DNA of 37,576 bases from Pelosinus propionicus DSM 13327 (GTDB lineage Bacteria > Bacillota > Negativicutes > DSM-13327): positions 1-37,576 of the forward strand of contig NZ_FOTS01000052.1 of assembly GCF_900114615.1 (NCBI RefSeq), written 5' to 3'. A program made the position numbers and the translations under genes. Positions 12,321 through 33,974 of this stretch are shown here, piece after piece. Position 1 is the first letter of the stretch. Each line of letters begins with the position of its first letter. The notes beneath the pieces were generated by a model. That model was not told where the DNA came from. It was given only the letters and a program-made list of their open reading frames with translations, and did not search any database.

Positions 12321-13631
12321 TTATTCATCAAAAGAATCCATGTATCTGAGATATTGTTCTTTTGTAAATGTCGGCTTATATTCAGCACAAATTCTTTTTG
12401 CCCCCTCTGCTCCATTTCGCAATAATGCGTAAGCGGTAAGAGCAAAAATTTTAGCGGTGACAATGTATGCCAATTCTTCATCTTCCATACTAAAATCAAC
12501 GGTATGGAGACCGCCTCTAATACCGCCTGTTTGAAAGCGAATGACCGGCTGCAGGTGCTGAACATCACCAATGTCGGTTGATCCTCCGCTATGTTGCTTA
12601 ACATTCGCTTCAACCACTTTATACTTTCCGGCAATTGCATTGGCAGCTCTTGCAAGCTCAGGATATGCCTCACTAGAAAGTGTCGGCAAATATCCTGGCA
12701 GAGTAGTAATTTCACACTTTGCGCCAATTGCATACGCTCCTGCCTGAAAGGCCCGATCCGTCTTTTCCGAAGCATCAAGTATTGCATTTTTATTTTTTCC
12801 CCGCACTAATGTTTCTAAAACAACCTCATCTGGCACTACATTGACCAAATTGCCGCCTTTTGTCATGATCGGATGAATTCTGACCGTATCTTCATCACGA
12901 AAGGTTTCTCTTTGATAAGCCAAAGCAGAGAGGCCTAGAGAGGCTGCATTTAAAGCATTTATTCCGTTTTCCGGGCAGGCGGCCGCATGAGCGGCTTTGC
13001 CATGATAGCGAATAACTTTTGAAACAAAACCGTTTCCCGTAATTCCGCCTGTTACAATATCATCCGCCCTTATATGATGCGCAATGCTCAAGTCAATATC
13101 ATCAAAAGCACCCTGCCGGATTAACTCGCACTTTCCGCCGCCATATTTTATCTTACCTTCTGCCCGCAGTTTATTTTTAAATTCAATCTCTCCATATTCT
13201 TCCGCCGGAGTCGAAAAAAAGATCACCTGACCATCCAGCTTCTCTTTTACCTCAGAATCGCTTAACGCTATAGCTGCGCCGATAACACCGGCAAGCTGGG
13301 CATGATGTCCGCAGGAATGAGCAGCCTGCGTCTCTTGATTTGCGTATTTATGTTCAGGAATACGCAGCGCATCTAATTCTCCAATTAATGCTACGCTGAT
13401 ATTTTCTTTTCTTTCTGGATTCAGATAAACCTTAGCGCCTGTAATTGCTAATTCTTCCTGAATCGGCAGCTGCAATCCTTTCATAAAACAATTAAACTTT
13501 TCCGCCGTTTTAAACTCTTTATAACCAAGCTCTCCATGTGTATAGATATCTCTGGCAAACTCCACTATTTCTTTCCGGTTTTTCTCGATGAGTTCAATAA
13601 TTTTTTTCTCCGTATCATCTAAATGAAGCAT
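12321..13631 (-). CDS. M20-family metallo-amidohydrolase (aminoacylase-like)
   Basis: 436 residues. The metal-binding motif HSCGHH (C107, H109, H110) and the catalytic/metal glutamates in TPAEEYG (E144, E145) identify an M20D-type amidohydrolase of the IAA-amino-acid hydrolase/N-acyl-amino-acid deacylase group. These enzymes release an amino acid from an N-acyl conjugate in the cytosol. AAHAAACPENGINALNA marks the dimerisation domain and GGLHTVDFSMEDEE is near the C-terminus. The gene follows metQ on the same strand after a hairpin, so the substrate may be an N-acylated methionine or a related sulfur amino acid brought in by MetNIQ; this is inference. The RBS AAAAGGATGG precedes ATG 13631. 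Confidence 0.85.
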   Translation of the reverse strand: MLHLDDTEKKIIELIEKNRKEIVEFARDIYTHGELGYKEFKTAEKFNCFMKGLQLPIQEELAITGAKVYLNPERKENISVALIGELDALRIPEHKYANQETQAAHSCGHHAQLAGVIGAAIALSDSEVKEKLDGQVIFFSTPAEEYGEIEFKNKLRAEGKIKYGGGKCELIRQGAFDDIDLSIAHHIRADDIVTGGITGNGFVSKVIRYHGKAAHAAACPENGINALNAASLGLSALAYQRETFRDEDTVRIHPIMTKGGNLVNVVPDEVVLETLVRGKNKNAILDASEKTDRAFQAGAYAIGAKCEITTLPGYLPTLSSEAYPELARAANAIAGKYKVVEANVKQHSGGSTDIGDVQHLQPVIRFQTGGIRGGLHTVDFSMEDEELAYIVTAKIFALTAYALLRNGAEGAKRICAEYKPTFTKEQYLRYMDSFDE

Positions 13632-13662
13632 GATTACACCATCCTTTTAGCAATCAATCAAA

Positions 13663-13701
13663 AGGCCATATGTGCATGATTCTATCATGCACATATGGCC
13701 T
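13663..13701 (-). terminator. Long perfect hairpin between metQ and the amidohydrolase
   Basis: An 18-bp perfect inverted repeat (AGGCCATATGTGCATGAT, 13663-13680, and its complement 13684-13701) has a 3-nt loop and a TTTTG tail on the minus strand. It acts as a partial terminator or processing stem that separates expression of metNIQ from the last gene. Confidence 0.75.
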
Positions 13702-13717
13702 CCAGCTCTCTATCAAC

Positions 13718-14557
13718 TCACTGTGATTCTTTCGGCACATACCACAAGCCTTTATTATTGGCCTTCATGTACGCTTTAAACTCGTCTGAATGATAGGCTG
13801 CAACGATATCCTTCACCCATTGCGCATCCTTATTTTTGTCCTGTACTACCAATTGCAGCAGCAGATATGGCAGAATATCCTCTGTCAGCAATGCCGTAGC
13901 CGGGTCAATTTTAGCATTATACACAATAGATCCGGTAATCACAATAAAATCAAAGTCAGAACGAACCGCCGGGATATTCAGTGATTTCATTTCCGTAAAC
14001 TGAATATTATAGGGGTTTTCCACTATATCCTGCTGTGTTACCGCAGACAAATCCTTGTCTTTTGCCAGCTTGATCCACCCCGCCTTTTGCAGCAAAGCAT
14101 ACGCCCTCGCCGTATTTGACGCATCATTCGGTATTGCAATCCTTGCCCCATTGCTAATTTGGTTCAAGGCTGCTTTTGCCCCCGGATAGATGCCTGCCGG
14201 CACTGTCGGAATGGGACTAACCGCTGCTAAATGGCCTTTTTGCTTTTCATTAAAATTATTCATATAGGCAGTGTGCTGCTCCACATTGAAATCAACCTCG
14301 CCTTCATTCAAAGCAACATCTGCCTGCAATAAGTCCGACATATCCTTAGCCGTAATCTTGTAACCCTTCTTTTCTAAAATCGGTTGAACAGCCTGCTCAA
14401 ACAATTCGGAGTACGGCCCCTGAGACTTGCTGAAAACCAGCTCTTTCTTCGTATTACCAGCTTTAGCGCTGTCGCCGCTGCTGCCGCAGCCTGCCAAAAA
14501 TATGGTCCCCAGCATAGCTGCCAATAAAAACACTGCAATCTTTTTTACATTCATCAT
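13718..14557 (-). CDS. metQ: MetQ, methionine-binding lipoprotein of the ABC importer
   Basis: The start at ATG 14557 (ATGATG) has an AAAAGGGG site; a longer frame to 14641 lies inside metI and is not used. The 279-residue product has a lipoprotein signal ending in FLAGC (mature Cys near 24), then the NLPA/MetQ domain: KSQGPYSELFEQAVQPILEK, DVALNEGEVDFNVEQHTAYM and ANDASNTARA-like segments (IPNDASNTARAYALLQKAG). It captures methionine outside the membrane and hands it to MetI. It is the third gene of metN-metI-metQ with a 25-nt gap to metI. Confidence 0.93.
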   Translation of the reverse strand: MMNVKKIAVFLLAAMLGTIFLAGCGSSGDSAKAGNTKKELVFSKSQGPYSELFEQAVQPILEKKGYKITAKDMSDLLQADVALNEGEVDFNVEQHTAYMNNFNEKQKGHLAAVSPIPTVPAGIYPGAKAALNQISNGARIAIPNDASNTARAYALLQKAGWIKLAKDKDLSAVTQQDIVENPYNIQFTEMKSLNIPAVRSDFDFIVITGSIVYNAKIDPATALLTEDILPYLLLQLVVQDKNKDAQWVKDIVAAYHSDEFKAYMKANNKGLWYVPKESQ

Positions 14558-14582
14558 AAAAATCCCCTTTTCTCTATCTTTT

Positions 14583-15242
14583 TTAATGATTACGTACTTT
14601 AGAAGAAAAATAATTCCCGAACGACTGGATGATCTGGACAAATATAATTAATACAATTACGGTAAATAACATAAGCGGAAAATTCAATCGTTCATAACCA
14701 TAGGTCAGCGCCAAATCACCTACGCCTCCGGCTCCGATAGCACCTGCCATAGCAGTCGCCCCGATGAGTCCTATCGTACCAATGGTGACCGATAAAATCA
14801 ACGATCCATAAGCCTCCGGCAGCAGAAAATACCATACAATTTCAAAATAAGACGCTCCCATGGCCTGGGCCGCTTCCACAATTCCTTTATCTACTTCCAG
14901 AATTGAATTTTCAAACAACCGCGTCAGATATGGCGCAATAAAAACAACCAAAGGAACTAATGCCGCTGTTGTTCCCACTCTGGTTCCCACAATTTCTTTC
15001 GTCAGCGGCAAAATAAATACCATTAAAATAATAAATGGAATACTCCGGATAATATTGATAACGGTATTTAACACCGTATATACATATTTATTCTTTAAAA
15101 TACCGTTATCATTGGTTAAAACCAGCGTCATCGCCATCATCATGGCAAGAACTGAACCGATTGCCAATGAAATGGAAACCATGTAAATTGTCTGCTGCGC
15201 GGCCAGCACAATCTTAGAAAATGGAACACCAAGCTCCATCAT
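14583..15242 (-). CDS. metI: MetI, permease of the methionine ABC importer
   Basis: The start is ATG 15242, which overlaps the metN stop as ATGA and has an AGGAGGTGAT site. The frame extends to a TTG at 15260 without support. The 219-residue protein has about five membrane helices and the BPD_transp_1 coupling motif (EAAQAMGASYFEIVWYFLLP). It forms the homodimeric channel for D/L-methionine. Gene order and translational coupling with metN are standard for the family. Confidence 0.93.
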   Translation of the reverse strand: MMELGVPFSKIVLAAQQTIYMVSISLAIGSVLAMMMAMTLVLTNDNGILKNKYVYTVLNTVINIIRSIPFIILMVFILPLTKEIVGTRVGTTAALVPLVVFIAPYLTRLFENSILEVDKGIVEAAQAMGASYFEIVWYFLLPEAYGSLILSVTIGTIGLIGATAMAGAIGAGGVGDLALTYGYERLNFPLMLFTVIVLIIFVQIIQSFGNYFSSKVRNH

Positions 15243-16261
15243 ATCATCACCTCCTGCCAACTAAGCTGCTGATTCCGGATATAATCCATTACTCTCTCTA
15301 TTTCCGGACTCTCTCCGATAACCTGAATAACAAAAATCCCCAATACTGTTTGTTGTAATTCATTGACTGAAGCAAACAATATGTTTGTCTCAACATCAAA
15401 ATCCTTATTGATGCGATACAATACATTGTCCCTTACATTTTCACCCAGGAACTGCAGCCTAAGAATTTTATAATTTCGTCTATCACCCTGCAGTTTCTGA
15501 ACAATACTGTCCGGAATTTTATCAGCAATGACCGTCTGTACAAACTTTTTTGTTATCTCTTGCTGTGGATTACTAAATACATCAAGAACAGAACCCCATT
15601 CAATTACTCGTCCATGTTCCATAACCGCCACTTTGTTGCAGATGCGCTGGATTACATGAATTTCATGGGTTACGATAAGAATGGTAATCTTCAGCTCGCG
15701 ATTGATTTTTTCCAACAGCCGCAAAATAGAATCTGTCGTCTCCGGGTCCAAGGCGCTTGTTGCCTCATCACACAATAGAATCGACGGGTTGGTAGCCAAC
15801 GCCCGGGCAATACCAACACGTTGTTTCTGGCCGCCTGACAATTGATTTGGATATGCGTTCACCTTATCTGATAAGCCTACAAATTCCAGCAGCTCGGAAA
15901 CTCTTGCCCGAATTTCTTTCTCTCCTACACGGTTCAATCGTAACGGAATAGCGATATTGTCATACACCGTTTTTGAATTCAACAAATTGAACTGTTGAAA
16001 TATCATGCCAATACGTTTTCGCACTTGCCGCAATTCAGAAAAAGACAGTGTATTGATATCTTGTCCGTCTACTTCTATTCGTCCGCCAGTCGGCGTCTCC
16101 AATCCGTTCACCATTCGCAGTAATGTAGATTTCCCGGCACCGCTAAATCCGATTACCCCGAATATATCGCCGGCTCGAACTTGCAGAGATACATGGTCCA
16201 ACGCATTTGTCTGCTGTTTTTTCATCGTAAATGTTTTACTGATATCGATAAAATTAATCAT
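15239..16261 (-). CDS. metN: MetN, ATPase of the methionine ABC importer
   Basis: ATG 16261 (MINFIDISK) has an AGGAG site 8 nt upstream; an ATG two codons earlier (16267) is too close to it. The product is 340 residues. Counted from 16267, Walker A GFSGAGKST is at 40-48, the signature LSGGQKQR at 143-150 and Walker B LLCDEA at 164-169. A C-terminal NIL domain occupies about 265-340. In the family this domain senses internal methionine and shuts the transporter. metN is the first gene of the operon and lies after a possible attenuator. Confidence 0.93.
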   Translation of the reverse strand: MINFIDISKTFTMKKQQTNALDHVSLQVRAGDIFGVIGFSGAGKSTLLRMVNGLETPTGGRIEVDGQDINTLSFSELRQVRKRIGMIFQQFNLLNSKTVYDNIAIPLRLNRVGEKEIRARVSELLEFVGLSDKVNAYPNQLSGGQKQRVGIARALATNPSILLCDEATSALDPETTDSILRLLEKINRELKITILIVTHEIHVIQRICNKVAVMEHGRVIEWGSVLDVFSNPQQEITKKFVQTVIADKIPDSIVQKLQGDRRNYKILRLQFLGENVRDNVLYRINKDFDVETNILFASVNELQQTVLGIFVIQVIGESPEIERVMDYIRNQQLSWQEVMI

Positions 16262-16343
16262 TTCCATAACTCCTAATTATCAATGCTTCCACTAATTCTC
16301 AGCCTCTTTCGTTCATAAAACGACTCAAATACAAAACAAAAAA

Positions 16344-23982: not shown

Positions 23983-25971
23983 CTACTTCCTATTACGAAA
24001 CTGAACTGGCGTCGTTCCATATTTTTTCTTGAATAATCGATTGAAATGTTCTACGTTCTGATAACCTACGCTATCGGCAATCTTTTCGACAGTCATACTT
24101 CCACTTCGCAAAAGAGTACAAGCTTTTTTCATGCGGACATTTCTAAGGATTTCACCAAATGTCCCTCCGGATTTTTCTTTGATATATTTCGATAGATAGG
24201 GAACCGACAGATGCATCTGCTCTGAAAGTTCCTCTAAAGTGACAGTTAAATAATTCGTTTGGATGTAATTTATGATTTCATTAATTCTTTCATCCCTACA
24301 TTTATCTTCCGCCTGTATTTCGTCTAATTGATTGACAGCCACTACAAGGGCATCAATCGAAGATGTAATAATGTCATCATCAATTCCAACACCCCAGAAT
24401 AATTTGCTGTTAAAGCTAACTCCAACATAGGAAACCGCCTTGGAGGAAGAACCTTTTGAAAGTGCATGTTCTTCATAAATGGCTAATTCATAATGGATGT
24501 CAAAATATTGTTTAATTGCATTGCTTACAGCATCCAAGCGCCCATTTCCATTTCCTACAATCGTTCTAATCTGACCCTTATGATTTATGATAACTTGTGC
24601 CATAATGCCATCCATTTGTTTGAAGTGAAATTCTTCTATGTGAAAATACGGAGTATTATTCACATATTTCTCTTCAAATATTTGATATACCCATTGCGGT
24701 GATAATTCTTTGTGTTCCCTGTCAGAAACACCTTTCACCGTGTAACCCACGTCTTCTTTCATCTTAGCAGGAATAGACATTCCATAATTTCCTTCTAGAA
24801 TATAACCAATACCGCCTTTGCCTGACTGGCTGTTAATTCTAATGACATCTGAATCATATTCTCTACCAACATCCTTAGGGTCAATCGGTAGATACGGAAC
24901 TGACCATGAATCCGTTTTCTTTTCTGCCCTGTAATTCATCCCTTTAGCAATTGCATCTTGATGGGATCCAGAGAAAGCGGTAAATACGAGTTCGCCAGCA
25001 TACGGTTGGCGAGCATGCACTTGCATGCGAGTTAAAAGTTCATATTTCTCGCATATTTCTGGCATATTGCTAAAATCAAGTTTAGGATCAACACCATGTG
25101 AAAACAGGTTCATTGCCAATGTAATAATATCAACATTTCCTGTTCTCTCTCCGTTTCCAAATAAGGTTCCTTCAATTCGGTCGGCGCCAGCAAGCATTCC
25201 CAGCTCGGCATCACAAACACCGCAGCCTCTATCATTGTGAGGATGCAGGCACAATATGACGGAATTCCTGTATTTCAAATTCTTATTCATAAATTCAACT
25301 TGACTTGCAAATACATGAGGCATTGCATTTTCTACCGTTGTTGGCAGATTAATAATTGCTTTTTTATCAGGAGTAGGTTTCCATACATCCAGAACCGCAT
25401 TACATATTTCTAGTGCATAATCCACTTCTGTTCCAGGAAAGCTCTCTGGGCTGTACTGGAATGAAAAATTGCCAGATGTCTCTTCTGCTAATTTCTTTAA
25501 TAACTCTGCTCCATCAACCGCAATCTGCTTGATTTCTTCCTTACTTTTTCTAAACACCTGCTCCCTCTGTGCAACCGATGTGGAATTATATAAATGAATT
25601 ACAGCATGAGGTGCGCCCTTAACAGCTTCAAATGTTTTTTTAATAATATGTTCTCGAGCTTGTGTTAGTACTTGAATAGTTACATCTTCAGGTATCATGT
25701 TTCTCTCGATCAGTGCCCGTAAAAAATTATATTCCGTATCTGATGCCGCTGGGAAACCTACCTCAATTTCTTTGAAACCAATGTCCACCAGCATCTGAAA
25801 AAAATCTATTTTTTCCTCCAGGCTCATTGGTTCGATCAGTGCTTGATTTCCATCTCTTAAATCAACGCTGCACCAAATTGGGGGCTTATCGATATGATCT
25901 TTCTTAACCCAATCATAAGATACTTTGGGTGGCATAAAATATGCCCTTTCATATTTTTCAAAATTCTTCAT
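23983..25971 (-). CDS. leuA: 2-isopropylmalate synthase fused to an AraC-type DNA-binding domain
   Basis: A continuous 662-residue frame. Residues 1-420 are the HMGL/LeuA catalytic barrel of the LeuA2 (yeast-type) branch: DLRDGNQ (37-43), the metal-binding LHPHNDRG with H243/H245, and GNGERTGN (272-279). Residues about 425-550 are the LeuA allosteric (leucine-binding) domain. Residues about 560-662 are a complete AraC/XylS double HTH ([40 protein letters not shown] and [13 protein letters not shown]). LeuA condenses acetyl-CoA with 2-oxoisovalerate in the first committed step of leucine synthesis. Ordinary LeuA2 proteins end near 550-560 residues. The fusion suggests a leucine-sensing enzyme that also binds DNA. 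The start has an AGGAGGG site and a T-box leader precedes it. No other leu genes are in the window. Confidence 0.93.
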
Positions 25972-26000: not shown

Positions 26001-26320
26001 AAAAAAATCTTCCGTCCTATAATTCATAACAACGAATTATAGAGACGAAAGACAAAGCTCTCGCGGTACCACTCTATTTCATGATCAACATACACTCATC
26101 GGCACTACTCATGCCTATCCCTGTAACGGAGGACTTCCGTCATGACCTACTATCTTTCAGCCAGAAGCTCCAAGGCGAGTTCACCACATTTCTTATACTG
26201 TTTCGCATCACCCAACAGCTTTCTGAAATCAATTTGTGGATACTATTCCTTTTCATAGCTTTTCATATGAAATCAATTATTAAATTATCCAATAAAAAAA
26301 TCACGCCTAAGATTATTATA
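26001..26320 (-). promoter_or_regulatory. T-box leader with leucine specifier (CUC)
   Basis: The minus strand has the T-box core AGAGTGGTACCGCG (26075-26062), a terminator stem (26051-26034 with 26025-26009) and a T7 run. Upstream is a stem I with GGGTGATGCGAAACAG and the specifier region GGTGAACTCGCC, where CTC at 26179-26177 is a leucine codon. A -10 TATAAT is at 26320-26315, so the leader is about 300 nt. Uncharged tRNA-Leu would allow read-through into the leuA fusion gene, matching its role. Confidence 0.92.
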
Positions 26321-26457
26321 GCATTTCACAGGCATTTCTAATCCCTAATTGGATAATACCATATATCTTTCGTATTGCGTAGTGATAAATTTAATCAGTT
26401 TTATTGATCTTTTTTAACATTTTACTATTAATCATAAAATAAAGTGAAAGAAATATG

Positions 26458-27551: not shown

Positions 27552-28193
27552 TCATTCCCATTTCATAATTTCACAATTTTCAAAGCGTGGCAATTCCCTA
27601 AAACAGTTCATAAGAGATTTTGAATCTTCTCCTTTAGAATTGTTTAATACCCACATAGCCCTCATAAATTGTGCATGAGTAAACATGACTATAAATCCGC
27701 TTTTCATTTGACTCAAACGTTCAATGGCAGTCTGTGCACGAGACAGAAGCATCGTAAAGCTTTCTGCTCCCTCGCCGTCTATATAGTCAGGATCAAGTCG
27801 TTCCCAATATTCATTTACCCTTTCTTTGCGTTCAGCAGCAGTTGTACCTATGCAGGTCTCTGGAGATAAATAGGTAAACTCTTCTACATTCCACACCTCA
27901 CGCCTGACGTTGGGAAAACGTTCCATTGTCGGCTCTGCAGTTTGCTAGGTTCTTAAAAAAGGTGAAGTAATAATCAAAATAGGTGTTTCTTGAAAGGATA
28001 AACTTATCTGTTTAGCTTGTTCCTGTCCATCGACCGATAATGGAATGGTTATATGATTTTCAGTAGCTGCTCCAGCATTAGCTGTACTTTGTCCATGCCG
28101 TATTAACCAGACCTTTTTAACATCATCAAACTGAATTTCTTTTTCTATCTCTTTTTTGTTAAACAAAGTAACCTCACATTCCTTTCTATCCAT
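27552..28193 (-). pseudogene. Histidine phosphatase family protein interrupted by an in-frame UAG
   Basis: One frame of 213 sense codons is interrupted by TAG at 27947-27945 (codon 83). The first part has the catalytic LIRHGQSTAN motif (R32, H33, G34) and ends in SPFLRT. After the stop the same frame continues QTAEPTMERFPNVRREVWNV and contains the second catalytic histidine region MFTHAQFMRAM. SPFLRTxQTA is the normal family pattern, so one codon has mutated to UAG. Family members are phosphatases or phosphoglycerate mutases acting on small phosphorylated metabolites. The gene is inactive unless the UAG is read through. Confidence 0.85.
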
Positions 28194-29391: not shown

Positions 29392-31935
29392 CTACGCTAG
29401 CACAGTTATGATTCCATTTGTGCCATCTACACGTATCATTTGTCCATCTTTTACTATATTTGTAATGTTAGGTATATCTACTACGCAGGGTATTCCATAT
29501 TCCCGCGAGACAATTGCAGCATGGGAACCTGCACTTCCGATTTCAGTGACTACTCCGTATGCTAACCTAAAAAGCGGCGTCCAAACTGGGGCAGTATAGG
29601 GTGACACCAGGATATCGCCCTTTTTTAGTTTATGGAATTCAGATGGTCCTCTTACTATGCAGACTGGGCCTTCATACACTCCACGACTTGCAGAAATTCC
29701 CTTAATTTCGTTTGGATCCTCCATATTTTTAGCTTGTTTTTCTTTTTTATGAAATACAGGAAACGATCCGGTAGATATCATCCAATGAATTCCCTTTTCA
29801 TGGGCAGCATAAACCTTTTTATAAGCACTTTGCCTTTTTGCAATCTTTTCTTTACGATCTAATTTTCCCGCTGAGAAAGGCCCTAATTCTTCCAAGAAAA
29901 GAAAGAATATATCATTCGCTTCGCATAGGATGCCCTTTTCTTTAAGCATACTTCCAAGCTGTAAACTTAATCTGCGCACACAGGATGTAAGTTTTTCTAT
30001 ATAAAACAAACCTTCTTCTCGAATGATCACTCCTTCTCTGGCTAGATCAAGTATTTTAAGAAAGTTGTCATATTGTTTTTTATTTAGCAGTTTCTTGATT
30101 TCATTCTTTGCCTCTTCAAGGGCAATTTCTTGCTTTTTAAAGCTTGCCTCGGAATTGAACAGCTCATTGTCAGTCAATAATGAATCAATGAGATTATAAA
30201 CGACTTCCGGTTTTTCTCGCCATGTATAAGCGGATAGGGTAGGAGCCATACTTGCCGAAGGTCTATCGCCGTATTCTGCTAAAAATGCATTAAATTCATT
30301 TTTAAATTCAGTGCTGTCTTTTCCATACAAAGCTGCCGCATGTGCAACTTTGACCAATGATTTATTCTGCAGAGCCGTTCTAAAAGGCAATGCTTTAAGC
30401 AGGTTTTCTTTCATCTCTTCTTTCCGTTTTTTTCCTACGGCTTTTTTGACTAAATAGTCAAACTTTAAGTCGATAACGATATTAGGTACGAAATCAGATA
30501 TCCTTTTTTGAAAAAGAATTCCCATTTCGGTTACTGCCTGATTAATCAACTTTGCTAGTTTTACTGCATCCGTTGTATTCTCTCCTTCTTCATCCATTCT
30601 TTTAATCCACAAATCTATTTCGTTAGACAAGGATTGCCAAAAAAATCGAATGTCCATGGTGTATTCTTTAATGAATAATTTTGGTACTTTCCATAGCATC
30701 GCAAGAGAGAATCCCGCTTGTTTAAGATCAATAGCAACGCAGCCACTTTCTCTTTCGACAGGTCTCATCGGACTCTTAGGCAGACTAAATCCTACTTCAT
30801 TGTACAAATAACTGTCAAAACCTTGATAACAGGAACAAAGGTAAGCAAAATCCAAGGGCGTCGGAGGTTCTGAACAATGCTCCATAGCACTTTGCAATCC
30901 CCAGGGAGCTTTTTTACCCTGGAAAACGATTTGATCATCAGGGCCTAAAATATCCGTATCTTCAGGGACGGATAACTCAGTGGTGATCGGTCTGGCTTGG
31001 AGCATATAAATTTTTCCTTGTGAAAGAGCCCATTCTGTGTCCATCGGGCATCCGTAATGCTGCTCGACCGCTTTAGCAAGGTCTGTCAATTGCTGAAACT
31101 CACAACTGCTAAGGCAGAATTCTTTCCGCTCTTTTATTGGTACTTCTTCTAGCACCGTGCCGTTTTGGGTTAGCAGAATTCTTATTTCTTTGGAACCTAA
31201 AATTCGTTCTTTGACGCTTCCGGATTTTGATAAGATGAATGTATCTGGCGTTATTTGTCCGCTTACAATCGCTTCTCCCAAACCATACCCAGCGCTAATA
31301 AGCATTTCATCCCGTCTGCCATTGACCGGATTTGCCGTGAACATGACCCCAGCAGCTTCGGCATCGATCATTAATTGGACAACAACAGCCAAGTCTACCT
31401 TGAGATGTTCAAATCCCATGCTGATGCGATAGGATATGGCCTGGGACGACCAGAGACTGGCCCAGCATTTTTTTATATGCCTAATGATCTCATCGATTCT
31501 GCAAATACCTAGATAAGTTTCATGCTGTCCCGCAAAGGATGCAGAGGGTAAATCTTCGGCTGTAGCACTCGAACGGACTGCAACCAATAAATCAGATCGG
31601 CTGCTCAGTTCTTTAGAAAAGCTAGCGTATGCCCTTTTTACGTCTTCCTGCACCTCATTAGGCATAGGAGACTCTTCAATCCATGTAGAAATGCATTGAC
31701 TAGCCTCAGTTATAGCAGAAATATCATTCTCAGCGATGTTTTCCAGTTTAGCTTTTATCGGCTCTTTCAGATTTGCAGCTTCTAAATGGGCGCGGTAGGC
31801 CTCTACTGTGACTACAAATCCAGAAGGAACAGGAAGCCCCGCCTGGATTAACACCCCTAGATTTGCACCTTTGCCACCTGCAATTGCCAGTGAATCTTTA
31901 TTCAGTTCGGTTAAATTATTTGTATATTTTGACAC
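29392..31935 (-). CDS. Rifampin phosphotransferase-like / PEP synthase-like enzyme
   Basis: I place the start at GTG 31935 (SKYTNNLTEL), 8 nt after AGGAG; a GTG three codons earlier overlaps the ribosome site. The product is 847 residues, close to the usual 830-870. The ATP-grasp domain (about 1-325) has IAGGKGANLGVLIQAGLPVP, VRSSATAEDLPSASFAGQHE and LQARPIT. A variable middle domain (about 340-740) follows, then a C-terminal swivelling domain with the phosphorylated His (about 808) in GSAGSHAAIVSREYGIP. Rph enzymes phosphorylate rifamycins with ATP; the related YvkC and PpsA share the fold. Its place after a MarR-controlled exporter favours drug modification over central metabolism. The substrate is unproven. 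Confidence 0.83.
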   Translation of the reverse strand: MSKYTNNLTELNKDSLAIAGGKGANLGVLIQAGLPVPSGFVVTVEAYRAHLEAANLKEPIKAKLENIAENDISAITEASQCISTWIEESPMPNEVQEDVKRAYASFSKELSSRSDLLVAVRSSATAEDLPSASFAGQHETYLGICRIDEIIRHIKKCWASLWSSQAISYRISMGFEHLKVDLAVVVQLMIDAEAAGVMFTANPVNGRRDEMLISAGYGLGEAIVSGQITPDTFILSKSGSVKERILGSKEIRILLTQNGTVLEEVPIKERKEFCLSSCEFQQLTDLAKAVEQHYGCPMDTEWALSQGKIYMLQARPITTELSVPEDTDILGPDDQIVFQGKKAPWGLQSAMEHCSEPPTPLDFAYLCSCYQGFDSYLYNEVGFSLPKSPMRPVERESGCVAIDLKQAGFSLAMLWKVPKLFIKEYTMDIRFFWQSLSNEIDLWIKRMDEEGENTTDAVKLAKLINQAVTEMGILFQKRISDFVPNIVIDLKFDYLVKKAVGKKRKEEMKENLLKALPFRTALQNKSLVKVAHAAALYGKDSTEFKNEFNAFLAEYGDRPSASMAPTLSAYTWREKPEVVYNLIDSLLTDNELFNSEASFKKQEIALEEAKNEIKKLLNKKQYDNFLKILDLAREGVIIREEGLFYIEKLTSCVRRLSLQLGSMLKEKGILCEANDIFFLFLEELGPFSAGKLDRKEKIAKRQSAYKKVYAAHEKGIHWMISTGSFPVFHKKEKQAKNMEDPNEIKGISASRGVYEGPVCIVRGPSEFHKLKKGDILVSPYTAPVWTPLFRLAYGVVTEIGSAGSHAAIVSREYGIPCVVDIPNITNIVKDGQMIRVDGTNGIITVLA

Positions 31936-31952
31936 ATAATTCACTCCTCGTT

Positions 31953-33386
31953 TTATGCTTTTCGAGCTTTTATTATTTTTTGATCTTTCATAAACATGAC
32001 CGCGCTAATGGATAAGAGAATTGTAATTAGGGTTAACATCATCGCGTAATTCAAGGCAGCATTATAAGCTTGTTGCTGCAAAATGTCACTTGCTTGTTCA
32101 GTAATTCGGTCAGCAGAGTGCAGGCTGTGATTTTGGATTTGTGTTGTTAAAACGGTTATACATAGTGCCTGATTGATCTGTTTTATGGTATTTTGCAGCG
32201 CCGAGGCTCTGCCGACAAGATGGCCGGGAACAGCGTATATCCCGGCAGTTCCAACTGGTTGCATACAAAACCCCATACCAAGCCCTCTTAATGTGGATAA
32301 CAGTAGGATGGTTTCCACAGAGGTGTTCATATCTAGAAAGCTCAGTTGATAAGTGGTCACGGCGACGATGAAAAGACCTGGTACTGTCAATATTCTGAGT
32401 CCAACCTTGACTAGTAATCTGCCGCTTATGGCTGACGAAACGCCTGCGGCTATTGCTGAAGGAAAAAGTAATAAACCTGCGTCTAGTGCACTAAAACCTC
32501 TTACTTCCTGTAAGTATAAAGGAAGGATCAGCACGCCTCCCATAAAGGCAAGTCCGTGTAAAGTCTGAACGATCTGGCTCACTGTATAGTTGTATATTTT
32601 AAAAACGCGTAAATCAAGCAAGGGCTCTTTAACAGTCAGTTCATTTACAATGAAAACCACTGTACTGATGAGTCCGACAAAAAGCAGTACCAAGTTTTTT
32701 ATATTATCCCAGTCTATCGAGGCGCCTTCGCTAAGAACATAGAGTAAACTCACAATGCCGATCACTGAAGAAATAAATCCGACTATGTCAAAACGTTTAA
32801 ATGGCTTGGTCGGAGAATTTTCCAATGAATAACTTGCTATTATTAGGCCTAAGATTCCAAGAGGAACGTTTACAAGGAACATCATCCCCCAATCCATGTT
32901 TGCAATGATATATCCACCGATGGTTGGCCCCAGAGCCGGACCAAACATTCCTACAATTCCCCAGTAACCCATCGCTACACCCCGTTCTTCATGAGGGAAT
33001 ACAGTGAAGATAATGGTAACTGCAACCGGCATAATCATACCGCCACCGATTGCCTGAATGATTCTAAACAGTACCAATGAAGTATTACTCCATGATAATC
33101 CGCATAGCATCGAACCCAATGTAAACATGGATAAAGCGAAAATGAATACTTTTTTCGTGCCGAAAATCTCGATCAAAAATCCCGTCAAGGGAATTATTGC
33201 CGCTAGTGCTAAGGAATAAGCTGTTAGTACCCACTTTACCTCCCCTAGACCAACATTGAACACAGACATCAGTTTAGGAATTGCAATATTTACAATGCTT
33301 GCATCTAACATAGTCATAAATGTACCTAATATAATCACTGCCAGAGCCAGCCACTTGTCTGCAGGCTCCATCATTTTTATTTGCAT
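31953..33386 (-). CDS. EmrB/QacA-type MFS drug exporter (DHA2, 14 helices)
   Basis: The start at ATG 33386 (MQIKMMEPADKWLAL) has a GGAGGGA site; the longer frame to 33425 would overlap the operators. 477 residues with about 14 membrane segments. TMLDASIVNIAIP (motif D1) and the motif C region GMFGPALGPTIGGYI are typical of proton-driven multidrug antiporters of the DHA2 family. It lies 17 nt before the Rph-like gene, so both are co-transcribed. Two TAGAATTCTA palindromes lie just upstream, which fits control by the MarR protein of the preceding gene. Confidence 0.9.
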   Translation of the reverse strand: MQIKMMEPADKWLALAVIILGTFMTMLDASIVNIAIPKLMSVFNVGLGEVKWVLTAYSLALAAIIPLTGFLIEIFGTKKVFIFALSMFTLGSMLCGLSWSNTSLVLFRIIQAIGGGMIMPVAVTIIFTVFPHEERGVAMGYWGIVGMFGPALGPTIGGYIIANMDWGMMFLVNVPLGILGLIIASYSLENSPTKPFKRFDIVGFISSVIGIVSLLYVLSEGASIDWDNIKNLVLLFVGLISTVVFIVNELTVKEPLLDLRVFKIYNYTVSQIVQTLHGLAFMGGVLILPLYLQEVRGFSALDAGLLLFPSAIAAGVSSAISGRLLVKVGLRILTVPGLFIVAVTTYQLSFLDMNTSVETILLLSTLRGLGMGFCMQPVGTAGIYAVPGHLVGRASALQNTIKQINQALCITVLTTQIQNHSLHSADRITEQASDILQQQAYNAALNYAMMLTLITILLSISAVMFMKDQKIIKARKA

Positions 33387-33424
33387 TTTGTCCCTCCATC
33401 TAAATTGCAACAATAATCTAATCA

Positions 33425-33449
33425 TAGAATTCTAATAGTTAGAATTCTA
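33425..33449. promoter_or_regulatory. Tandem MarR-type operators before the exporter gene
   Basis: Two perfect palindromes TAGAATTCTA lie at 33425-33434 and 33440-33449, 15 bp centre to centre. They sit between the marR stop and the exporter start. A related palindrome occurs before marR itself. Confidence 0.7.
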
Positions 33450-33478
33450 ATAATTACTTTAAAAAAATCAATTTGGAT

Positions 33479-33913
33479 TTACTCCAAATTGTTGTTTATT
33501 TTGGTTAAAAGGCGAAGCAATGTTTCTATCTCATCATCGGTAAGACTTTTTGTAATGTCATCTTCTATTTCCTGAAATTTTTTATCAAAGCTTCCAACTA
33601 ATTCTTTTCCCATTGGCCTGAGGTATACTCTTTTTTCTCGTTCATTGTTTTCAGGGATTTTCCTTTCAATAAACCCCTTTTTTTCAAGCCCCTGAAGCAT
33701 GCTCGTCATCGTAGCATCTCGTTTATTAAAGAAATCTGCTAAATCTTTCTGTATAACTCCTTCATTTGAATTGATATAACCAATGGTTTGTCCTTGCTGA
33801 GAAGTTAACCCATATTCGGAAAGACTCTTGTCTGCTTTATTCTTCATTTTAAAGGTTATCGCTCTAAAGAGATAAGAAAAAGGTCTATTCGTCCAAGAAT
33901 TGTTTTCTGCCAT
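33479..33913 (-). CDS. MarR-family repressor
   Basis: The start at ATG 33913 (MAENNSWTNRPFSYL) has an AAGGAAGTG site. 144 residues, the standard MarR length. The winged HTH includes GVIQKDLADFFNKRDATMTS and MLQGLEKKGFIERKI; the wing is ENNEREKRVYLRPMGKELV. It probably represses itself and the downstream exporter/Rph pair through the TTAGAATTCTAA-type sites and is released by a drug ligand. The ligand is unknown. Confidence 0.9.
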   Translation of the reverse strand: MAENNSWTNRPFSYLFRAITFKMKNKADKSLSEYGLTSQQGQTIGYINSNEGVIQKDLADFFNKRDATMTSMLQGLEKKGFIERKIPENNEREKRVYLRPMGKELVGSFDKKFQEIEDDITKSLTDDEIETLLRLLTKINNNLE

Positions 33914-33974
33914 TCTTTCACTTCCTTTTAAATCCAAATATAAATTGAATTCGTTTATGCAATCATACTAACAG

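Follow-up and report, generated by a model that had tools for sequence, protein, structure and literature searches.

A 2-isopropylmalate synthase fused to an AraC-type DNA-binding domain, with a predicted operator before its own gene

Results

One reading frame joins a LeuA enzyme to an AraC-type domain

The window, by which we mean the whole analysed stretch of 37,576 nucleotides, carries on its minus strand an uninterrupted frame that encodes a LeuA-AraC fusion protein (Table 1); the plus strand of the same interval has many stops. All Pfam domains of the protein score above their gathering cut-offs. In the C-terminal part, HTH_18 is matched at residues 582-661 (72.8 bits, cut-off 33.6) and HTH_AraC at residues 621-660 (51.0 bits), and by its profile this double-HTH domain of about 100 residues belongs to the AraC/XylS type. 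The best NCBIfam model for the protein is that of LeuA2, PRK03739.1 (NF002991; 805.8 bits, cut-off 455), which labels it merely as 2-isopropylmalate synthase, and this leaves a gap in the annotation. A preliminary description of this DNA had read from the letters a single frame with a LeuA2, a leucine-type domain and a double-HTH AraC domain, and had placed the allosteric domain between the enzyme and the DNA-binding part. The ORF on the minus strand and the Pfam and NCBIfam matches agree with the first statement, and the order of the Pfam domains and the conservation pattern agree with the second.

Table 1. Features of the fused gene and of its upstream region in the window.
Feature	Position	Strand	Basis
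CDS, LeuA-AraC fusion, 662 aa	23983..25971	-	ORF call, Pfam, NCBIfam
AraC-type DNA-binding domain, two HTHs, aa 566-662	23986..24276	-	Pfam, conservation, model
Linker, aa 550-565, lowest conservation among the stretches compared	24277..24324	-	mean majority-residue fraction 0.54
LeuA_dimer allosteric domain (leucine-binding type), aa 423-549	24325..24705	-	Pfam PF08502, 86.3 bits
IPMS_D2 post-catalytic domain, aa 327-393	24793..24993	-	Pfam PF22615, 116.7 bits; low model confidence
HMGL-like catalytic barrel, aa 32-306	25054..25878	-	Pfam PF00682, 227.6 bits
Terminator-like hairpin of the T-box expression platform, then U run	26007..26053	-	fold
T-box leader RNA	26038..26265	-	Rfam RF00230, 123.2 bits, gathering 93
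Predicted extended -10, TGGTATTAT, spaced from O1 as in the family	26353..26361	-	81-site alignment
Predicted operator O1	26381..26417	-	matrix and pattern scans
O1 direct repeats, TWAAAWWNATCA	26405-26416 and 26383-26394	-	period 22 bp

The enzyme part appears intact. The motifs DLRDGNQ (residues 37-43) and HPHND (243-247), which the preliminary description had also pointed out, are both present and are invariant in 49 aligned fused proteins including the window's. The best solved relative, both by sequence and by model, is M. tuberculosis LeuA (1sr9, E 2.5e-155), and in the sequence alignment R39, D40, E176, H243, H245, H337 and Y360 stand opposite R80, D81, E218, H285, H287, H379 and Y410, which we take to be catalytic, metal or substrate residues of that enzyme. 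These positions, too, are invariant in the 49 fused proteins. In the allosteric domain, G475, G477, L479, Y499, H502 and I534 agree with residues of the leucine pocket of M. tuberculosis LeuA, and D480 stands where that pocket has Ala536.

The AlphaFold model of the fusion protein has a mean pLDDT of 77.5 and a pTM of 0.58, with seven helices across residues 561-660 at a pLDDT of 78-88 per ten-residue block. Its enzyme part matches 3hps with a Z score of 43.2 over 470 residues (rmsd 14.8 over the whole), and its catalytic part matches M. tuberculosis LeuA 3u6w with a Z score of 42.7 over 323 residues (rmsd 3.0). An AraC-type chain was absent from the match list of this fold search, which covered mainly residues 17-421, and we assign the HTH fold from the Pfam and sequence matches.

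The fusion is conserved and its HTH part is under selection

The frame is open through residues 550-560 in all of 81 loci, that is, 80 relatives and the window itself, which is catalogued as L001 and L172. All 80 relatives have the fusion in one frame; they are the best-scoring of 367 candidate loci and therefore favour full-length matches. Among these best 80 of 367, the loci at 84-97% identity come from Sporomusa and one Pelosinus-labelled genome, and those at 74-79% from Lachnospiraceae, Eubacterium and other Clostridia-labelled records. An unselected view is given by 150 genomes from the family of Sporofaciens musculi (genome G010, locus L049), which we take to be Lachnospiraceae. A match at E<=1e-60 is found in 140 of them, and 38 carry the fusion. 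The non-fused forms of this family are either close unfused LeuA2 (61-78% identity) or distant unfused LeuA2 (44-53%). Only unfused LeuA2 is present in 102 of the 140 matching genomes, and an extra unfused LeuA2 accompanies the fusion in five of the 38 (G027, G031, G096, G126 and G178). In the window's class, taken as Negativicutes from named relatives, the complete fusion occurs in 7 of 120 genomes from two genera (g1, that of the window, and g29), with a fragment in an eighth. Thus, neither of two doubts attached to the preliminary description, a stop between residues 550 and 560 and a lack of homologous fusions, has been borne out.

Over 90 fused proteins (the window's, those of the 80 best loci and nine further ones), the mean majority-residue fraction is 0.88 in the barrel, 0.80 in the HTH part, 0.76 in LeuA_dimer and 0.54 in the linker. 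In the recognition helices, P591, Y592, S594, K595, Y596, E641, H642, F643 and R645 are identical in all 90 proteins, and V640 and N644 in 89; by analogy with MarA, these invariant positions presumably include those that contact bases. The dN/dS of the HTH part is 0.02-0.12 in 10 of 15 Sporomusa-type pairs and is undefined in the other five, where dS is saturated, and the distances of HTH and enzyme correlate with r = 0.88 over 4005 pairs. At the level of sequence, purifying selection acts on the HTH part, and the enzyme, the allosteric domain and the AraC domain are a single conserved chain. The shared open frame, the 38 fusions in the sample of 150 and the purifying selection therefore rule out chance, a chimera or an assembly error as the origin of the fusion, and the homologous loci with an open frame likewise exclude a missed stop.

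A direct repeat precedes the fused genes

A direct repeat with a period of 22 bp is conserved upstream of the fused genes; we call it O1 and predict that the fusion protein binds it. The consensus of 81 sites, TTAAAATAnATCAAKnAAAnTGATTAAAWTYATCACT, holds two TWAAAWWNATCA copies 22 bp apart. It is followed at a fixed, ungapped distance by an extended -10 element, TRTGnTAKGATA, and the -35 position falls at the end of the motif. In the window, a poor -35 position (26376-26381) directly adjoins O1, and a generic promoter scan called no -35/-10 pair there.

Allowing up to four mismatches and a gap of 8-11, an O1-type site is present in 85 of 88 fused upstream regions of at least 180 nt, versus 5 of 68 unfused ones (L112, L117, L132, L133 and L143). 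L037 and L073 have too short an upstream sequence. The 68 unfused rows represent 66 distinct ones, because two pairs (L093/L134 and L095/L122) are identical in the compared protein, and for 17 of the unfused loci the absence of a site is weaker evidence, since only about 240 nt upstream was available. The upstream counts leave out 13 of 30 loci, which failed the motif filter and are probably LeuA1 or citramalate synthase genes.

Because the motif was first spotted by eye in upstream regions, we trained a matrix and applied it to held-out sequences. Training used 47 sites from L031-L081, seeded with the consensus, and the window's relatives were left out of it. Among the held-out fused upstream regions, 36 of 39 outscore all those of HTH-less unfused genes (maximum 2.9 bits) and all of 780 base-shuffled sequences (maximum 7.8 bits); the AUC for the 39 held-out fused versus the 68 unfused regions is 0.97. 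The window's O1 scores 45.4 bits, and the runner-up within the 37.6-kb window scores 6.2 bits. A good site is missing in L168, L169 and L170 (3 of the 39), and the second half-site is degraded in L167, L169 and L171. The highest unfused scores belong to L132 (25.1 bits) and L133 (4.8 bits, below the best shuffle), both of which encode an HTH downstream. With the matrix, no comparable O1 site was found upstream of an HTH-less LeuA2 gene. The link between operator and HTH is one of association.

The operator is mostly single in the genome

In the window genome, the strict pattern with up to three mismatches has one site, before leuA. Across 43 genomes, in which the scans likewise went up to three mismatches, a short core of the operator has exactly one site at 0-1 mismatch in 22 of 27 fused genomes, and all 22 sites precede the fused gene. 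Of the 16 genomes that lack a one-frame fusion, one has such a site (G004:C1:3292107-3292133). Five fused genomes have none (G014, G015, G049, G054 and G166); in G014 and G015 (loci L061 and L064) O1 has a shifted spacing. In the split-gene genomes (L132 and L133), the leuA site is not among the matches of the core pattern.

At 2-3 mismatches, the 27 fused genomes give 42 hits, versus 30 for a reversed-pattern control, and the 16 other genomes give 23, versus 20. Since these hits modestly exceed the control, a few weak genuine further sites are possible. Four of the weaker hits were checked, two in the window genome and one each in G010 and G018, and all lie inside open frames. No operator was found near leuB in 20 genomes, within about 1.5 kb on each side, where the best match has 8 mismatches of the 35-mer. 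We rejected a pathway regulon on these two grounds. The preliminary description had supposed an enzyme that reads leucine and reports it to promoters. The domain order, and the idea that a leucine-type domain feeds a DNA-binding domain, gain support from the conservation of the fusion, the near-invariant recognition helices and the matching operator. The plural was not borne out by the scans, in which the 0-1 mismatch operator is single in 22 of 27 fused genomes and in the window genome, and none was found near leuB in 20 genomes.

A leucine T-box in the window and a second element in one clade

In the window, a T-box leader lies between the upstream O1 and the gene. As read from the Rfam alignment, it has CUC (Leu) in the specifier position at 26177-26179, and its T-box sequence is UGGUACCGCG. 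The segment 25985-26085 folds at -37.7 kcal/mol (z -5.93), and a generic terminator scan found none. An Rfam scan detects the T-box in 9 of 16 fused loci. In the upstream table, a short motif served to call the T-box and a loose text search to find 'CTC', so that the counts are approximate; on this basis, 'CTC' occurs in 13 of 33 T-box-bearing fused rows. Directly below O1, the sequences of L006, L012 and L018 look like those of the T-box group but have no motif, and the Rfam scan finds none in L012.

A second operator-like element, O2 (TWAAAWWNRNCAANNNAAWTGAT), is found in the L031-L074 group, for example in L036, about 74 bp downstream of O1 and over the presumed transcription start. It is present in 37 of 50 T-box-less and in 0 of 33 T-box-motif fused loci, and in 0.17% of base-shuffled controls. 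This count is a description and not a test, because the element was spotted by eye in the same sequences and the 12 O2-bearing rows on the tree all belong to one clade; the low rate in the shuffled controls does not alter this. O2 looks like a replacement of the T-box.

The fusion is the sole LeuA of the window genome

In the window genome, which measures 5.41 Mb and has a listed completeness of 100%, the fusion is the one match to LeuA_dimer. An enzyme of the LeuA1 type was not found in it and was found in six congeners (G003-G008). As read from translations, the ilv-leu cluster of the window genome (L220, contig C85) encodes the small subunit of acetolactate synthase, ilvC, leuB and acetolactate synthase. 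In G006 (L221), a congener with both enzymes, LeuA1 immediately precedes leuB, a place where the window cluster has no leuA. This suggests that the acquired fusion replaced the leuA before leuB. The fusion is also the sole LeuA_dimer protein in nine of nine Lachnospiraceae-type genomes; two such proteins are present in Sporomusa ovata (G011), the tenth genome of that set. The fusion enzyme would have to be active if this is the pathway by which these bacteria make leucine.

The neighbours of the fused gene differ between loci, and we therefore dropped a reading in which it belongs to a leu operon or regulates shared neighbours. Several features of the flanks can be recorded here. At 27552-27926 of the window (minus strand) lies a histidine-phosphatase ORF of 124 aa that matches positions 88-155 of the profile only; the L002 version has 246 aa, so a truncation or a frameshift may have shortened the window copy. 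At 29392-33937 (minus strand), a PPDK_N plus PEP-utilizers protein, whose best NCBIfam matches are of the PEP synthase and rifamycin phosphotransferase types and all below cut-off, lies alongside an MFS transporter and a MarR regulator. At 12321-16267 (minus strand) there are an M20 peptidase, an NlpA lipoprotein, a permease and a NIL-domain ABC ATPase, a cluster that we take to be of a methionine-type uptake kind. The flank of the Sporomusa acidovorans locus has a molybdenum/tungsten cofactor riboswitch (L005:7797-7910, minus strand; 37 bits, gathering 36).

The fusion probably arose once and was transferred

In a tree of the LeuA part, the window protein, L002 and L005 cluster with L041 (99/96), nested among other fused forms. 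This grouping suggests horizontal transfer, by which the window's class probably obtained the fusion. On a tree with 31 HTH rows, in which split genes count as HTH-bearing, and 16 HTH-less rows, four changes are needed. Because all the HTHs are alike, there was probably a single gain of the HTH followed by some losses, and the association of operator and HTH accordingly represents few independent events.

A translated search found an HTH encoded downstream in 2 of the 68 unfused genes, L132 (64% identity, in another frame) and L133 (48%). We dropped both as HTH losses, since the HTH is encoded downstream in another frame. In each case it follows right after the LeuA stop, and the L133 copy adjoins an A run; the split may be a natural fission, frameshifting or a sequencing error. 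L137 shares a clade with four fused forms (98/92), has neither a downstream HTH nor an operator, and has the T-box motif. It is a likely, though not firm, case of HTH loss, with a placement within its clade of 93/38.

Discussion

We suggest that in the fusion a 2-isopropylmalate synthase has turned into a transcription factor that controls its own gene through O1, and we give this reading a probability of about 0.7. Since the best matching site lies before the gene that encodes it, the fused enzyme probably sets the level of its own synthesis. Known LeuA enzymes are inhibited when leucine binds their LeuA_dimer domain. In the mechanism that we propose, the enzyme homodimer would present its two AraC domains to the two direct half-sites, which lie 22 bp or about two turns apart, beside the -35 position. 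The low-leucine form would most likely activate transcription of leuA, because O1 ends at a poor -35 position and the -10 is extended. When leucine occupies LeuA_dimer, a signal passing through the short linker would weaken or re-place the contact with DNA, and transcription of leuA would fall. The leucine T-box of the window would add a second check, on the charging of tRNA-Leu, and in the T-box-less clade O2, over the presumed start, probably provides a repressing arm. Given self-regulation through O1, we lean towards leucine as the effector, and activation at O1, judged from its position, is the mildly favoured outcome. A fuller picture can be offered more tentatively, at somewhat under even odds. 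In it, an AraC-type switch that acts on its own promoter only senses leucine through the site of feedback inhibition, so that one leucine-binding event sets both the activity and the amount of the enzyme, and in one clade the switch and O2 have replaced an ancestral leucine T-box.

The most serious competitor also has the fusion regulating itself through the operator, and makes it a repressor or has it respond to another ligand, such as 2-ketoisovalerate, acetyl-CoA or, as in PutA, the occupancy of its substrate site. The effect of AraC-type proteins depends on the position of the site and on the ligand, and O2, with its presence over the presumed start of many T-box-less loci and of none with a T-box, is a place where binding should block initiation. 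Against this, O1 lies upstream of a poor -35 that it abuts, together with an extended -10, which is the usual layout of an activated promoter, and the domain that adjoins the HTH is of the leucine type. We regard this possibility as real, though as the less probable choice. It is unlikely that the repeat is the site of another regulator of leucine genes, or a generic promoter feature, that travels with the gene. The operator-HTH link is one of association and the gene probably entered new genomes along with its promoter, as this explanation would have it, but 22 of 27 fused genomes have a single strong copy of the repeat, which was found neither near leuB in 20 genomes nor in comparable form before HTH-less LeuA2 genes, and its direct-repeat form suits an AraC domain.

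A role as regulator of many genes, either of the pathway or as a global leucine-responsive regulator, was the hypothesis of the preliminary description and has in its favour the excess of weak sites in fused genomes over the reversed-pattern control. We consider it a little less likely still, as HTH-less genomes show a similar rate of weak hits, the four weaker hits examined fall within open frames, and within about 1.5 kb of leuB in 20 genomes no site has fewer than 8 mismatches. Finally, the HTH could be without any part in regulation, either as a structural appendage or as a relic of evolution. The enzyme works without an HTH elsewhere, most matching genomes of the sampled family have only the unfused LeuA2, and L137 lacks the HTH within a clade of fused forms. 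However, the recognition-helix positions are invariant in 89-90 of 90 proteins, the HTH is under purifying selection and it co-occurs with the operator, so we hold this explanation to be very improbable. The self-regulating enzyme is the reading that we prefer.

Trigger enzymes such as PutA, and also BirA and NadR, are enzymes with a DNA-binding domain that act on their own gene, as we predict for the fusion. In E. coli, the putA-putP spacer is the only site that the proline dehydrogenase PutA is reported to bind (PMC8249747), and with its own promoter region as the sole target PutA is the nearest precedent. Unlike PutA, which is catabolic, the fusion is a committed-step enzyme of biosynthesis; it differs further in its C-terminal AraC domain, in its predicted signal, which would be the end product at an allosteric domain, and in having unfused sisters in the same bacterial family. 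AraC has a C-terminal double HTH and an N-terminal ligand domain, and binds two direct half-sites about two turns apart beside the -35. The fusion shares the double HTH, the order with the ligand part first and, by prediction, the half-site layout, whereas its ligand part is a whole enzyme with an allosteric domain instead of a sugar-binding domain. Ada joins an AraC-type domain to an active methyltransferase and senses by methylating itself. Both Ada and the fusion thus combine an AraC-type domain with an enzyme, while the predicted sensing of the fusion is by binding of the end product. M. tuberculosis LeuA (1sr9, 3fig and 3hps; PRK03739 type) has the same domains and catalytic residues as the fusion, and its chain stops, in the alignment, after LeuA_dimer, as do the unfused LeuA2 proteins of the sampled family.

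BzdR and the laboratory chimera Q1 join an HTH to a shikimate-kinase-like domain and illustrate a proposed route from enzyme to regulator, for which the bifunctional stage was built artificially (PMC3602430). BzdR uses the enzyme fold as its effector domain, whereas the fusion keeps its catalytic residues intact. Because these residues are intact and no second LeuA_dimer protein accompanies it in the window genome, the fusion has the look of a bifunctional stage that arose in nature. Full-text literature searches, judged by titles and the starts of abstracts among the matches listed, gave no paper on a LeuA-AraC fusion. The enzyme-plus-regulator kind is already known; to our knowledge, there is no description of a feedback-inhibited committed-step enzyme that carries an AraC domain and has one operator, at its own gene.

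Usually, an end product controls the enzyme by allostery and the gene through a distinct repressor, attenuator or riboswitch. Here, one chain apparently combines the two. Natural controls are at hand, since fused, split and unfused forms occur in one bacterial family and there are lineages with and without the leucine T-box. The fusion is a compact candidate for a leucine sensor, and, with its catalytic residues retained, it allows the evolution from enzyme to transcription factor to be tested directly.
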